From: Candidatus Nitrotoga sp. CP45
GTDB taxonomy: Bacteria > Pseudomonadota > Gammaproteobacteria > Burkholderiales > Gallionellaceae
DNA length: 63,001 nucleotides
Reading direction: 5' to 3'
Assembly: GCA_003402375.1 (NCBI GenBank)
Contig: QFXJ01000009.1
Span: 1 to 63,001 of the forward strand
The position numbers and the translations under genes were made by a program. Below, one piece after another: positions 25,659 through 29,150 of this stretch. Within the stretch, counting starts at the first letter, position 1. Each line of letters begins with the position of its first letter. Below the pieces are notes generated by a model. That model was not told where the DNA came from and searched no databases. It saw nothing but the letters and a program-made list of their open reading frames with translations.

Positions 25659-26159
25659 TCAATTTTGGTTGTTATAAGGGTCGGTCGCAACCTCACTCAC
25701 CAGTTGGCCAATCATTGCTCCAACACGTAAATCATCCATGCGACCAAAGTGATTAAGTCTGATGTATCCTTGCCGATCTAAAATAATCAACGTCGGTGTG
25801 CCCCTCATACCAAATACTTCCATCGTATGCGGAATATTACCTGTTGTTGATAGTCGATCCACAGCAACTGGAAAACGGATACGGTATTCATAAAGAAATG
25901 CCTCTAAAGCTACAGGGGTCATTGCATTGTGATGCTCGAAAACACTGTGAATACCAATCACGGCAACATCTGCTGCCGGAAAAGTGTCATGGATAGCCAT
26001 AGCCTGCGGCAGGCCATGTGACACACAACCAGGACATAGCATCTGGAATGCATGCAGTACGACCACGCGTCCGCGTAATTCCGCAAGCGTAATAGAACGT
26101 AGTGTATTGAGCCATTGAGATACTTGTAATTCTGGAGCTACTGAATTGATGCTAGACAT
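25659..26159 (-). CDS. TlpA-like redoxin / thioredoxin-fold protein with CPGC motif
   Basis: 166 residues, no signal peptide. The thioredoxin fold is visible: VVVLHAFQMLCPGCVSHGLPQ carries a C42-P-G-C45 active site, then VAVIGIHSVFEH, and the cis-Pro loop GMRGTPTLIILDRQGYIRLNHFG. This matches the AhpC/TSA-redoxin family, where such CxxC proteins reduce or oxidise partner thiols or act as peroxidases. It is the last of three minus-strand genes (protoglobin, AhpD-like, this), 67 nt after the AhpD-like gene. A role as reductant for that enzyme is inferred from the context only. Confidence 0.8.
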   Translation of the reverse strand: MSSINSVAPELQVSQWLNTLRSITLAELRGRVVVLHAFQMLCPGCVSHGLPQAMAIHDTFPAADVAVIGIHSVFEHHNAMTPVALEAFLYEYRIRFPVAVDRLSTTGNIPHTMEVFGMRGTPTLIILDRQGYIRLNHFGRMDDLRVGAMIGQLVSEVATDPYNNQN

Positions 26160-26226
26160 ACAATTATTCCTGATTCAGGTTAAATATTGCTGGGAGAATC
26201 TGAGCTACTCCCAGCATAACTGGTAT

Positions 26227-26772
26227 CTAAGCTGCTACGCGTAGATTTATCTTAGGGAAATCGATCGGCACATTAAAAGCCAAATTGACATAATTGGTAA
26301 AAATGTTCAATGCGACGTGAGCCATAATTTCGACGATCTGTTCGTCGTTAAACCCCACCGTTCTCAATTCGACGACATCGGCATCGGCGATTTGCGCATG
26401 GTTGGTAACAAGCTTCAAAGCAAAACGCAAAGCAGCGGCGGTTTGTGCGTCATCTGATTGTCCAGCTTGAGCAGCTGCCATCTCAAGTGCAGAAACCCCG
26501 GCATTTTGACCCAAGAGAGTATGAGCTGCCAAGCAATATTCACAGCGATTTCTGTCAGCAATTGCAACTGCAATTTTTTCCCCGAGCTTAGCTCCCAGAA
26601 TGCCAGAACCAAGTGCGCCAAATGAACCCCACATACTCTTGAGCGCTGCGGGTGAATTGGCCACTGCGCGGAACATGTTTGGCACAACGCCAAAAGCTCC
26701 GTGGATCTGATTCAAAATAGCTTTACGATCTTCTGTAGCTTCGTTGGCGTTTATAAGTTGAACACGGGACAT
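26227..26772 (-). CDS. AhpD-like carboxymuconolactone decarboxylase-family enzyme
   Basis: 181 residues, all-alpha CMD/AhpD fold. The catalytic signature is C77-x2-C80-x3-H84 (RCEYCLAAHT), the redox-active CxxC with His of AhpD-like alkylhydroperoxidases, not the decarboxylase proper. FGVVPNMFRAVANSPAALKSMW and EIMAHVALNIFTNYVNLAFNVPID match the peroxidase-related subgroup. It probably uses the vicinal cysteines in peroxide reduction or thiol relay in the cytoplasm. It lies 96 nt after the protoglobin gene and before a CPGC redoxin, which would be a natural electron partner; that link is inference. Confidence 0.85.
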   Translation of the reverse strand: MSRVQLINANEATEDRKAILNQIHGAFGVVPNMFRAVANSPAALKSMWGSFGALGSGILGAKLGEKIAVAIADRNRCEYCLAAHTLLGQNAGVSALEMAAAQAGQSDDAQTAAALRFALKLVTNHAQIADADVVELRTVGFNDEQIVEIMAHVALNIFTNYVNLAFNVPIDFPKINLRVAA

Positions 26773-26868
26773 GATAAGTTTTCCTTAATTTATTAATTGA
26801 TTGAGATAAATTTGTAGTGAGGCTCAAAAATATGGAGCACACGCCGTATTAGCTATGCAATCCAACAA

Positions 26869-27549
26869 CTAGAACTGACCATCGCGAACGTACGGATAGC
26901 TCCACAGAATGGTTTGCAATAAAACAGACTTCACCCAAGCAGCATGCATCTTCTCGACATCGGCTGTACTCACGCCTTTCTTTGCAAGAAAGGGCTTAAG
27001 CGTTGTCGTCACAGGGATCGTGAGCGCGGGCAGATAGCGGAAATTCACCTGAGGCACGCTTTTAACGTGATCCGTTTTATTTTTTTTGATCTTGGTGTGA
27101 CGAAGACCGATCTCATACTGATAGTCGAGCCATGCTTGATCATAGTTCGCATCAGCCGTATCTAATATCCACTGGCCGAATCTTTTACGAACTGCACCCA
27201 GGTAGTCGCCATCTGGCTGGCCTGTCTTAGTATTTTTAAAATACTCGACAAGCTCCGGCGTAGATGCAACAAAACCATACCAAACATCTAAAATTGCATC
27301 TGTTTGACCCGCCAAAATCTCCTTGCTTTTACGCAGATAGAGCACATCCTCATCAGTGAAGAGAAGTGTCTTCTTTAATGACTCTAAATCCTTAAGAGTA
27401 TAGGGTGCAGTCGCAACTGATTTTTGGCCGAAAGTGTAGCCGGGAATTTGAGTCTGCGTAGTGAGATCTGATCCGCTGTGTGCAGATGCGTTCGGAGCTA
27501 CGGCACTAAAGCAAATTGATAAAGCGAGGGAGAGTAAGCGATTTTTCAT
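26869..27549 (-). CDS. Protoglobin-family haem protein with signal peptide (exported)
   Basis: 226 residues. Residues 1-23 form a Sec signal peptide (KNR, hydrophobic core, ASA cleavage site before His24). The rest follows the protoglobin pattern: IPGYTFG, W90-Y91 (DVWYGF) where protoglobin distal Trp/Tyr sit, RFGQWILDT, the proximal-haem segment YEIGLRHTKIKKNKTD with likely haem ligand H151, then PFLAKKG and the C-terminal ILWSYPYVRDGQF. Protoglobins bind O2, CO and NO, and most described ones are cytoplasmic or sensor domains. A stand-alone exported form suggests periplasmic gas binding or nitric oxide/nitrite chemistry. Function is inferred. A candidate promoter lies just upstream. Confidence 0.85.
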   Translation of the reverse strand: MKNRLLSLALSICFSAVAPNASAHSGSDLTTQTQIPGYTFGQKSVATAPYTLKDLESLKKTLLFTDEDVLYLRKSKEILAGQTDAILDVWYGFVASTPELVEYFKNTKTGQPDGDYLGAVRKRFGQWILDTADANYDQAWLDYQYEIGLRHTKIKKNKTDHVKSVPQVNFRYLPALTIPVTTTLKPFLAKKGVSTADVEKMHAAWVKSVLLQTILWSYPYVRDGQF

Positions 27550-27637
27550 TAATAAATCCTTTAGTTAGTGTTAACAGCAAAGTTCGGAAAGTTTGGTTAA
27601 ATAATTATTTTATTTATTTCAAGGCGGATTATTCATA

Positions 27638-27654
27638 TAGGAATCCTAATTATA
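27638..27654 (-). promoter_or_regulatory. Candidate promoter -10 with overlapping palindromic operator for the protoglobin genes
   Basis: On the minus strand a consensus -10 box TATAAT (27649-27654) is followed at once by the 11-base palindrome TAGGATTCCTA (27638-27648), at the place where transcription would begin. No good -35 hexamer is at the standard distance. It lies between the MarR gene and the protoglobin gene, so the palindrome is a candidate MarR operator. Confidence 0.4.
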
Positions 27655-27680
27655 ATAGTTAAAAAAAAGCAATACTGCAT

Positions 27681-28340
27681 TTAGACTCTCTCAAGCTCTC
27701 GCCAGTTTTGAACTGCGACGGTTGCCTGGGCCTGGTCATGTTCGGGGCAATCAAGGCGCAATTGGCTGACAGAAAGTGGCGCATTGACCAATGTACAGTA
27801 GTGTGGCGCCTCAGAACCAGGATGCCTGTTCACAGCAAAGTACTTGCATGTAACGCAGGCGCGGATTTCAGGGAACCGATCCGACTGCTGCAACTTGCCA
27901 ATCAATGCCAGAAGGGATTCGAACAAAGCATCTTGAGTGGATTGGGGAAGATCGGAAACGGCTTCGTGCGCAAAACCGACCGAGTTGGAAATCCTAGCAG
28001 CCAAGTCTTGCCCTGAACTCGTCAGCCTCAATGCCACAGCGCGCCCGTCAACAGAGTCACGTCCCTTCTCGATTAAGCCTTTAGTTGTGAGCGAAGTGAT
28101 TGAATCACTCGCGCTGGCGGCCGTTACGCCCAGATGCTGGGCTATCCATGACAAACGTACACCTCTGCCACGTGACCGCAGCGCTTCAAGGATATCCACT
28201 TGTGTCGGGTTGAGCCCTTCGGTCGTCGCAAACTGCCACGCTCCGCTACGCAACACTGAAGCAATTCGAGTAATGGCACTGACAATGCGTTCGCTTTTCG
28301 CAGGTGTGTCATGCCAAGTAAGGGGGGGGTTCGTTTTCAT
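27681..28340 (-). CDS. MarR-family transcriptional regulator with C-terminal four-cysteine motif
   Basis: About 219 residues from the ATG at 28340; a frame extends to 28388. The N-terminal two thirds is a MarR winged helix: LNPTQVDILEALRS, the recognition region HLGVTAASASDSITSLTTKGLI, and the wing KGRDSVDGRAVALRLT. The C-terminal third, unusual for MarR, carries C162-x2-C165-x16-C182-x15-C198 (numbered from 28340), with the shape of a metal or Fe-S site. Such a site could sense redox state, NO or metal. It is transcribed toward the protoglobin genes with a 131-nt gap, so autoregulation and control of that cluster are plausible inferences. Confidence 0.82.
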   Translation of the reverse strand: MKTNPPLTWHDTPAKSERIVSAITRIASVLRSGAWQFATTEGLNPTQVDILEALRSRGRGVRLSWIAQHLGVTAASASDSITSLTTKGLIEKGRDSVDGRAVALRLTSSGQDLAARISNSVGFAHEAVSDLPQSTQDALFESLLALIGKLQQSDRFPEIRACVTCKYFAVNRHPGSEAPHYCTLVNAPLSVSQLRLDCPEHDQAQATVAVQNWRELERV

Positions 28341-28410
28341 GATCGCAGTATCTGCGAAATTTAAACAATTGTCTAGTAGTCCTAACAAATAGGTTGCGGC
28401 ATGCCTGGAT

Positions 28411-28752
28411 TTATACTTTTCTCAAATAGCATGCCTTGAGCATAAAGTTGCCGGAGTCCATTTTGCAGTCCACCTCATGATCTCCCGCAACCAAGCGGAT
28501 GCTCTTAACCTTGGTACCCATCTTAAGTGTGATAGATGACCCCTTGACTTTCAGATCTTTGATCAGTGCAACCGCGTCGCCATTTTTCAACACGTTGCCA
28601 TTGGCATCCTTCACCCCCGGTTCTACGCTGTCATCTGCGCGTGCGGCCTTCACTACCGGCCACTCATGACCGCAGTCGGCACAAATATAGTTGTCGCCAT
28701 CCTGGTATGTGTTCTCCATAACACACTGGGGGCAGGCTGGGATAGTAGACAT
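28411..28752 (-). CDS. yjdM: YjdM/PhnA-type zinc-ribbon protein
   Basis: 113 residues. The N-terminal zinc ribbon has C8/C11 (PACPQC) and a second CADCGHEWP pair; the C-terminal SH3-like domain has VKDANGNVLKNGDAVALIKDLKVKG and ends MLKACYLRKV. This is the family once called PhnA in E. coli, but not phosphonoacetate hydrolase; its function is unresolved. It sits between the MarR gene and arsC on the same strand, 38 nt downstream of arsC. Confidence 0.88.
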   Translation of the reverse strand: MSTIPACPQCVMENTYQDGDNYICADCGHEWPVVKAARADDSVEPGVKDANGNVLKNGDAVALIKDLKVKGSSITLKMGTKVKSIRLVAGDHEVDCKMDSGNFMLKACYLRKV

Positions 28753-28790
28753 AATTTCCTTTAAACTTTAAGTGATTCAGATACACCCTA

Positions 28791-29150
28791 CTAAGGTTGC
28801 GGCAGGATATCCAGTACAGATTCAGACGGTCGACACAAGCGTGTCCCCAAAGGCGTTACGACAATCGGACGATTGATCAAAATTGGGTTCGCGATCATAA
28901 AATCGATCAGTTCGTCATCACTCCATTTTGGATTACCCAGATCAAGTTCTTCAAACAACGAGTCTTTATTGCGTAGCACATCGCGCACCGGATTACCCAT
29001 AGCCACAATCAAAGCCACCAGTTCAGCGCGGCTAGGCGGCATTTTCAGGTATTCGATAACACGTGGTTCAATGCCACTATTGCGGATCACCGCCAGAGTA
29101 TTACGTGAAGTGCCACAATTGGGGTTGTGATAGATAATTATGTCTGTCAT
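28791..29150 (-). CDS. arsC: Arsenate reductase (glutaredoxin type)
   Basis: 119 residues, near the usual length. It carries the catalytic Cys in YHNPNCGTSRNTLAVI (C12) and the arsenate-binding arginines in VRDVLRNK and NRPIVVTPLGTRLCRPSE. It reduces arsenate to arsenite using glutathione and glutaredoxin in the cytoplasm. Arsenite must then be pumped out, but only the 3' stump of an ACR3 pump is present 21 nt upstream, so the local operon is broken; a pump elsewhere would be required for resistance. No arsR is nearby. Confidence 0.93.
   Translation of the reverse strand: MTDIIIYHNPNCGTSRNTLAVIRNSGIEPRVIEYLKMPPSRAELVALIVAMGNPVRDVLRNKDSLFEELDLGNPKWSDDELIDFMIANPILINRPIVVTPLGTRLCRPSESVLDILPQP

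Follow-up and report, generated by a model that had tools for sequence, protein, structure and literature searches.

Four minus-strand genes and their products

A run of four genes was analysed in a stretch of 63,001 nucleotides from Candidatus Nitrotoga sp. CP45 (contig QFXJ01000009.1), referred to here as the window. Along the minus strand, the run consists of a MarR-type regulator gene (marR, 27681..28340), a protoglobin gene (26869..27549), an AhpD-like gene of the CMD family (26227..26772) and a redoxin gene (25659..26159), separated by gaps of 131, 96 and 67 bases. An earlier note on this DNA had described the run as an exported protoglobin with two thiol enzymes behind a MarR gene, and all four genes indeed lie where it placed them. 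Each of the four products exceeds the curated cut-off of its family.

For marR, ATG 28340 was taken as the best start, giving 219 amino acids (stop included in the coordinates). The product scores 46.2 bits with Pfam MarR_2 (cut-off 27). Its AlphaFold model (mean pLDDT 85.9) shows a MarR-like fold and a C-terminal stretch predicted with confidence, and the top Foldseek matches of the model are MarR-type regulators. An alignment of 23 proteins from several phyla, including that of the window, revealed a C-terminal element (27747..27857, minus strand) with four cysteines (Cys162, Cys165, Cys182 and Cys198), each of which is invariant in all 23. When a further 14 MarR tails were read by eye, all of them had the four cysteines, in agreement with the description of the gene as a Cys4 MarR, and this type is called C4-MarR below. 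OhrR- and MarR-type thiol-switch regulators share with it the MarR fold and a probable autoregulation via an inverted repeat, but the cysteines of the window protein form a separate C-terminal four-cysteine element.

Protoglobins are haem proteins of ancient origin. The protoglobin gene encodes 226 amino acids and is the only match to this globin in its own genome. The product scores 102.8 bits with Pfam Protoglobin (PF11563; cut-off 25), and the M. acetivorans protoglobin in the PDB (2veb and others) matches residues 34-226 with an E value of 1.3e-70, covering the whole mature protein. Residues W90, Y91, F124 and H151 align to Trp60, Tyr61, Phe93 and His120 of the M. acetivorans protein and occur in 76, 77, 77 and 78 of 79 aligned globins, respectively. 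Of these, we take His120 to be the proximal and Trp60 and Tyr61 the distal haem-pocket residues. The family thus extends over the entire mature protein and the pocket is kept, but the window globin differs from the M. acetivorans protein by its place in a thiol-redox gene run and by an N-terminal leader, MKNRLLSLALSICFSAVAPNASA (27481..27549, minus strand), which was read as a Sec signal peptide, as the earlier note had proposed. From this leader, the globin appears to be exported. For the M. acetivorans protoglobin, the type protein, the biological role is described as still unknown in PMC3680402.

The AhpD-like protein (181 amino acids) scores 90 bits with TIGR01926 (cut-off 81.8). It carries a CEYC active-site motif (Cys77 and Cys80; 26533..26544, minus strand), so that its earlier assignment as a CxxC AhpD-like protein stands. 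In the alignment, C77, C80 and H84 are present in 25 of 25 proteins and E65 in 24 of 25, giving a CxxC with an upstream glutamate and a downstream histidine. These residues presumably act as their counterparts do in M. tuberculosis AhpD.

The redoxin (166 amino acids) was assigned to the AhpC-TSA fold (36.1 bits in Pfam, cut-off 26). Both cysteines of its CPGC motif (Cys42 and Cys45; 26025..26036, minus strand) are conserved in 39 of 39 aligned proteins. The closest solved structures, PDB 3eyt and 3lor, belong to the same SPOA0173-type redoxin family with the CPGC motif, and their PDB names state no function. Most of the aligned relatives (33 of 39) have a C-terminal two-cysteine tail, which is missing in the window protein and in L003, L005, L027, L028 and L038. 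Whereas the CPGC motif had been predicted correctly, a TlpA- or ResA-type periplasmic redoxin was rejected: the score with ResA is 34.1 bits against a cut-off of 170, and a leader was seen neither in the window nor in the listed relatives. Because it is leaderless and far below the ResA cut-off, the redoxin is probably cytosolic. The AhpD-like protein likewise showed no export leader in the window and the listed relatives, and since both thiol proteins lack export signals, a single continuous periplasmic thiol relay is unlikely. The module products appear to be split over two compartments.

Candidate operator sites

A perfect copy of a candidate operator, TAGGATTCCTA on the minus strand, lies before the globin gene (27638..27648). 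A second candidate, TAGGANTCCTA with one mismatch, is found at the marR promoter (28374..28384). With at most one mismatch allowed, TAGGANTCCTA occurs at just these two sites in the 63 kb. The marR promoter was predicted by a consensus scan as TAGACA - 17 - GATACT (28347..28375, minus strand; 9 of 12 matches), and the candidate operator overlaps its -35 element, which starts at 28375, by two bases. Since the scan gave 5 matches versus 5.7 in shuffled sequences, this promoter is supported by its position alone. A terminator scan of the region gave 0 hits versus 3.6 in shuffles, a result of little weight.

The sites are conserved among relatives. TTAGGA.TCCTAT is kept in all nine Nitrotoga-type loci (window included) despite the A+T-rich gap between marR and the globin gene, and TAGGA.TCCT is present at the marR promoter in seven aligned relatives (L004 left out). 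Among 42 distant C4-MarR loci, which are partly non-independent (e.g., L048/L049 and L180-L182), seven have perfect sites, as compared to 0.08 expected from random sequences of equal dinucleotide composition (50 rounds, maximum 2). These seven sites lie 10-59 bases upstream of the starts of marR, of a mini-thioredoxin gene or of the gene for an exported protein family, here called X and described below. Three Bacteroidota C4-MarR loci among those that lack a perfect operator have a one-sided form, and no perfect site was found in any of the 32 loci with an AraC-type regulator.

The second perfect TAGGATTCCTA site in the genome itself is located on contig C42. A CPVC mini-thioredoxin gene starts 52 bases after it, with a CDIC paralogue next in line (L201:1564-1797 and 1858-2097). 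Because these genes were reached via the motif and not via gene neighbourhood, they provide a partly independent check of the candidate operator. The mini-thioredoxin family rests on a home-built two-sequence profile, which gave E values of 1.7e-29 and 2.1e-11 for the two own-genome copies and matched both copies, in the same arrangement and at the aligned place, in three other Nitrotoga genomes; Pfam Thioredoxin_3 gave 18.8 for the first copy, under its cut-off of 24.8, and no match for the second. Members of the family also occur inside C4-MarR clusters of other genomes. An exported cupin-domain gene lies upstream of the pair.

Conservation and exchange of partners

Globin loci were collected from a genome collection with peptide patterns derived from the window globin, giving 69 loci, and partners were called by running profiles of the window families and their relatives over the loci. 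The identical four-gene order was found in eight of eight other Nitrotoga-type loci (L002-L009). The window globin, which is 97% identical to that of a betaproteobacterial metagenome-assembled genome (MAG; L002) and 96% to that of Nitrotoga sp. MKT (L003), falls within the Nitrotoga group in a globin tree (L051, L069, L070 and L079-L081 not included). Partners were counted over 68 loci, leaving out L070 and L079-L081; these differ in stretch length, several contigs being short, and include the eight close Nitrotoga kin. A redoxin was found in 37 of them, an AhpD-like protein in 21, a C4-MarR in 24, an RclR-like AraC regulator in 29 and an HxlR regulator in 4, while a glutamine amidotransferase was present in 12, a DUF2024 gene in 6 and a CPVC mini-thioredoxin in 4.

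Partners are more frequent at loci whose globin is scored as exported. By a home-made rule, a leader is present in 51 of 76 untruncated globin loci, the window included; these counts do not contain L051 (truncated), L070 (short weak match) or L079-L081 (weak matches in larger proteins). A C4-MarR, AraC or HxlR regulator accompanies 50 of the 51 globins scored as exported and 11 of the 25 others, and when the distance is restricted to 1000 bases the numbers are 49 of 51 and 11 of 25. The rule missed at least four leaders that are visible by eye (L015, L037, L048 and L049); with these re-labelled by hand as exported, in the tree and in a recount, regulators are found at 54 of 55 exported loci versus 7 of 21 others. 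The redoxin is present at 33 of 51 exported-globin loci and 6 of 25 others (Fisher p 0.0013, to be taken as a guide since the loci are related). Both halves of the tree contain a mixture of exported and leaderless globins. Lipobox-like cysteines occur in the globin leaders of two planctomycetes (L061 and L068). In two Bacteroidota (L041 and L042), a tandem pair of protoglobin genes is followed by DUF2024 and C4-MarR genes.

The same families were also traced without the globin as a starting point. When 300 genomes were drawn evenly from the order, 12 had a globin match, the own genome included; three of the matches are the weak ones in larger proteins, L074-L078 are leaderless and partnerless, and L071-L073 have an AraC-type module. 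The redoxin profile matched 18 of 398 Pseudomonadota genomes, again including the own genome, and around the 17 other redoxins a C4-MarR was found in eight cases and family X in seven. The MarR profile matched 20 of the 398 genomes. Five of the 19 genomes other than the own one were already in the redoxin set, and among the 14 new neighbourhoods a mini-thioredoxin was present in nine, Rof in six, X in five and an amidotransferase in four.

Given the Nitrotoga-type order and the partial sets in several phyla, the four-gene arrangement is, on sequence evidence, more than chance, and the neighbourhood is conserved as the earlier note had demanded of a real module. The gaps in the window and the loci without partners would suit chance neighbours or independent transcripts, with the globin having a job of its own (e.g., haem or O2 storage) unconnected to the thiol genes. 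This is the least probable of the explanations considered here, because the order recurs across phyla, the redoxin start and the globin stop share one base in L029 and L032 (script-chosen starts), and the candidate operator is common to the promoters.

The carriers are diverse. By name, they include Rubrivivax, Methylibium, Leptothrix, planctomycetes and Bacteroidota, although some MAG labels may be wrong, and most are not known nitrite oxidisers. The two complete Nitrospira globins (L045 and L047) have neither leader nor partners. Together with an incomplete one (L069), these Nitrospira protoglobins lie behind a thioesterase-like gene, as judged by eye, and lack the module. These observations bear on a defence against reactive nitrogen tied to nitrite oxidation, in which a periplasmic protoglobin would remove nitric oxide (NO) or peroxynitrite, or reduce nitrite, beside nitrite oxidoreductase, and the thiol enzymes would repair nitrosative damage. 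Such a role would suit the Nitrotoga-like origin of the window and the in vitro nitrite-reductase and peroxynitrite-isomerase activities reported for the CysE20Ser mutant of M. acetivorans protoglobin (PMC4020757), and hmpA with an Rrf2 regulator gene is located beside a Hymenobacter cluster. However, hmpA was found at this single locus only, and the diversity of the carriers and the bare Nitrospira globins led us to reject a nitrite-specific role as a general explanation. We consider nitrogen defence in this form unlikely. From the stress module for NO, nitrite-derived radicals or peroxide that had been proposed in the earlier note, a conserved, probably co-regulated gene set with an exported haem protein remains, and the special link to nitrite is not supported.

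In other genomes, different haem and exported proteins appear with the same type of regulator. Ruegeria pomeroyi has the order MarR / X - HTHP - redoxin, with HTHP directly before the redoxin. All 76 residues of this HTHP are covered by a match to PDB 2oyy ('Hexameric cytochrome'), and no signal peptide was seen in them. The protein resembles the window globin as a small haem protein in a C4-MarR/redoxin cluster and differs from it by the lack of a visible signal peptide, by its tyrosine-ligated haem and by its hexameric state (PMC4813847). Hymenobacter (L154) combines these elements in the order catalase - X - HTHP - protoglobin - DUF2024 - hypothetical - MarR (C4), with the hmpA and Rrf2 genes adjoining on the opposite strand. 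Among 119 stretches, this is the only one in which X and a globin occur together. Family X is exported, about 250 residues long, and has an invariant WH.HW motif in 12 aligned members; examples beside C4-MarR, HTHP and redoxin genes are L105:4228-4962, L120:3944-4705 and L154:2903-3634, among others. It gave no match in Pfam (four members), NCBIfam (two members) or the PDB (profile search). Ensifer has the shorter order MarR - AhpD - redoxin.

This exchange of HTHP and X, together with that of the regulator, suggests that the shared job is oxidant handling and not gas transport. It also fits poorly with a dedicated sensor, in which the globin would bind O2 or NO and signal to MarR or the redoxin instead of acting as an enzyme. 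Protoglobins are related to globin-coupled sensors (PMC4020757), but the window globin has a single domain (Pfam), lacks a transducer and bears an export signal, and no such signal is seen in the redoxin. We regard gas or redox sensing as very improbable.

A proposed oxidant-defence regulon and its candidate oxidants

We hold with moderate confidence that the four-gene run exemplifies a modular thiol/haem oxidant-defence regulon. From the composition, leaders, conservation and motif positions, we infer the following scheme for DNA binding, autorepression, oxidative release and the removal or reduction chemistry. The MarR protein would bind the TAGGA-N-TCCTA inverted repeat and repress its own gene together with those for the protoglobin (exported), the AhpD-like protein (cytosolic), the CPGC redoxin and the mini-thioredoxins. 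The four-cysteine centre would be altered by an oxidant that attacks thiols, be it peroxide, a hypohalous acid or some reactive nitrogen species, and the altered repressor would leave the DNA, allowing induction of the genes. Outside the cytoplasm, the protoglobin haem would react with the oxidant by peroxidase-like or isomerase-like chemistry, whereas the redoxin, the AhpD-like protein and the mini-thioredoxins would reduce thiols inside. In other genomes, the exported slot would be filled or flanked by HTHP and/or family X, with the regulator replaced by an HxlR protein or by an AraC protein resembling RclR.

More tentatively, exported protoglobins may be periplasmic oxidant-handling haem enzymes of an undescribed cross-phylum regulon. 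Its switch would be a MarR protein whose C-terminal part holds a redox centre of four cysteines that binds a metal or cluster, one branch acting at TAGGANTCCTA. The effectors protoglobin, HTHP and the WH.HW family would be exchanged or combined, and the regulator would be exchanged with RclR-like AraC and HxlR thiol switches. We regard this extended form as possible, with less confidence than the regulon itself. No paper on a system of this composition was found in the open-licence literature, which omits most subscription papers; the earlier note had known of none either. For one protoglobin branch, the role becomes testable, since the branch can now be assigned a regulator, a candidate operator and a likely compartment in addition to its conserved gene set. 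Two further groups emerge from the analysis, MarR proteins with four cysteines and the unnamed exported family X, and both occur in gene clusters with haem proteins of two kinds.

Judged by the families of regulator and partners, peroxide or hypohalous thiol oxidants are indicated at least as strongly as NO. Peroxide is favoured by the HTHP and catalase neighbours, and nitrogen species by the archaeal protoglobin activities, by hmpA at one locus and by the nitrite-oxidising kin of the host. The parallel to rclR-rclX speaks for chlorine oxidants (PMC7950407; PMC7464077). In Pseudomonas, rclR and rclX are both required for protection against hypochlorous acid (HOCl) and hypothiocyanous acid (HOSCN), and an rclR deletion is reported not to be sensitive to peroxides, electrophiles or an NO donor (PMC7950407).

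The rclR-rclX (RcsA) pair of Pseudomonas aeruginosa consists of an AraC regulator gene beside an AhpD-like CxxC gene, and Burkholderiales-type loci resemble it; these have a divergent Cupin_6 AraC gene with a globin gene and, in part, an AhpD-like gene and a redoxin gene. In Variovorax and a sampled genome (L104), the AraC gene is divergent from AhpD - redoxin, and no globin is present. The likeness to RclX is one of gene context, resting on AraC-AhpD pairs in relatives; in the window, there is no such pair, C4-MarR replaces AraC, and the exported protoglobin and CPGC redoxin are added. The module could be a relative of rclR-rclX for defence against HOCl, HOSCN or chlorite, in which the globin would serve as an additional scavenger in the periplasm. 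In support of this, the one AraC partner that was scored (L071) matches no NCBIfam family better than RclR (NF040475), and three cysteines are invariant across all 32 AraC partners, one of them in the column of RclR Cys89. On the other hand, the partners are only 23-28% identical to RclR, the scored protein reaches 83.6 bits against a cut-off of 400, and the first of the three cysteines aligns three columns away from RclR Cys21. In a background set of 15 Cupin_6 AraC proteins, 11 likewise have a cysteine in the Cys89 column and 4 have the first cysteine; two of these four (L136 and L138) also adjoin an AhpD-like gene. In view of the score and the shared cysteine pattern, the AraC partners were not accepted as true RclR. 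For the one HxlR partner scored (L044), the best NCBIfam matches are the redox regulators RrpA and RrpB, under the cut-off.

In keeping with such a defence, the genome of the window itself carries a gene of the chlorite dismutase family (280 residues, leader seen by eye), located on contig C49 (L083/L119) and not on that of the module. The eight Nitrotoga-type genomes carry it as well, but none of the others among 40 module genomes has a match over the cut-off, and chlorite dismutase was rejected as a module partner. Taken together, reactive-chlorine defence appears somewhat unlikely as the specific role.

Several results weigh against the oxidant-defence regulon, beginning with the two rejections just described, of true RclR among the AraC partners and of chlorite dismutase as a partner. 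Eight of the 68 globin loci, five of eight loci of the order sample and, within about 5 kb, five of the 17 sampled redoxins are partnerless. In 35 of the 42 distant C4-MarR loci a perfect operator was not found, and in these the family would rely on different sites or on a different logic. The motif occurs twice in the own genome, exactly as often as its reversed-pattern control, so that only location favours the two sites. Export separates the globin from its thiol partners, with no direct electron path evident. The AhpD-like frame is split in two of nine Nitrotoga-type loci (L005, 6777-7320; L007, 6778-7320), where this member may be dispensable or sequence errors may be present. Finally, for globin-bearing members the proposal draws on sequence analysis throughout.

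Some further neighbours were observed. Directly upstream of marR in the window are an arsC-type arsenate reductase gene and a yjdM/phnA gene (28411-29150, minus strand). One or both of these occupy the same place in six of the eight other Nitrotoga-type loci, and one of the remaining two is ended by a contig edge. A class-I glutamine amidotransferase gene lies near the module in 21 loci (L010, L012, L015-L018, L023, L025, L031, L039, L048, L049, L103, L111, L114, L125, L153, L175-L177 and L179), and a gene of the GCS2 glutamate-cysteine ligase family is near marR in L175 and, by eye, also in L176 and L177. These amidotransferase and GCS2 neighbours hint at thiol metabolism. In the sampled genomes L180-L182, the C4-MarR gene is divergent from mini-thioredoxin - X - Rof, the last encoding a Rho modulator.

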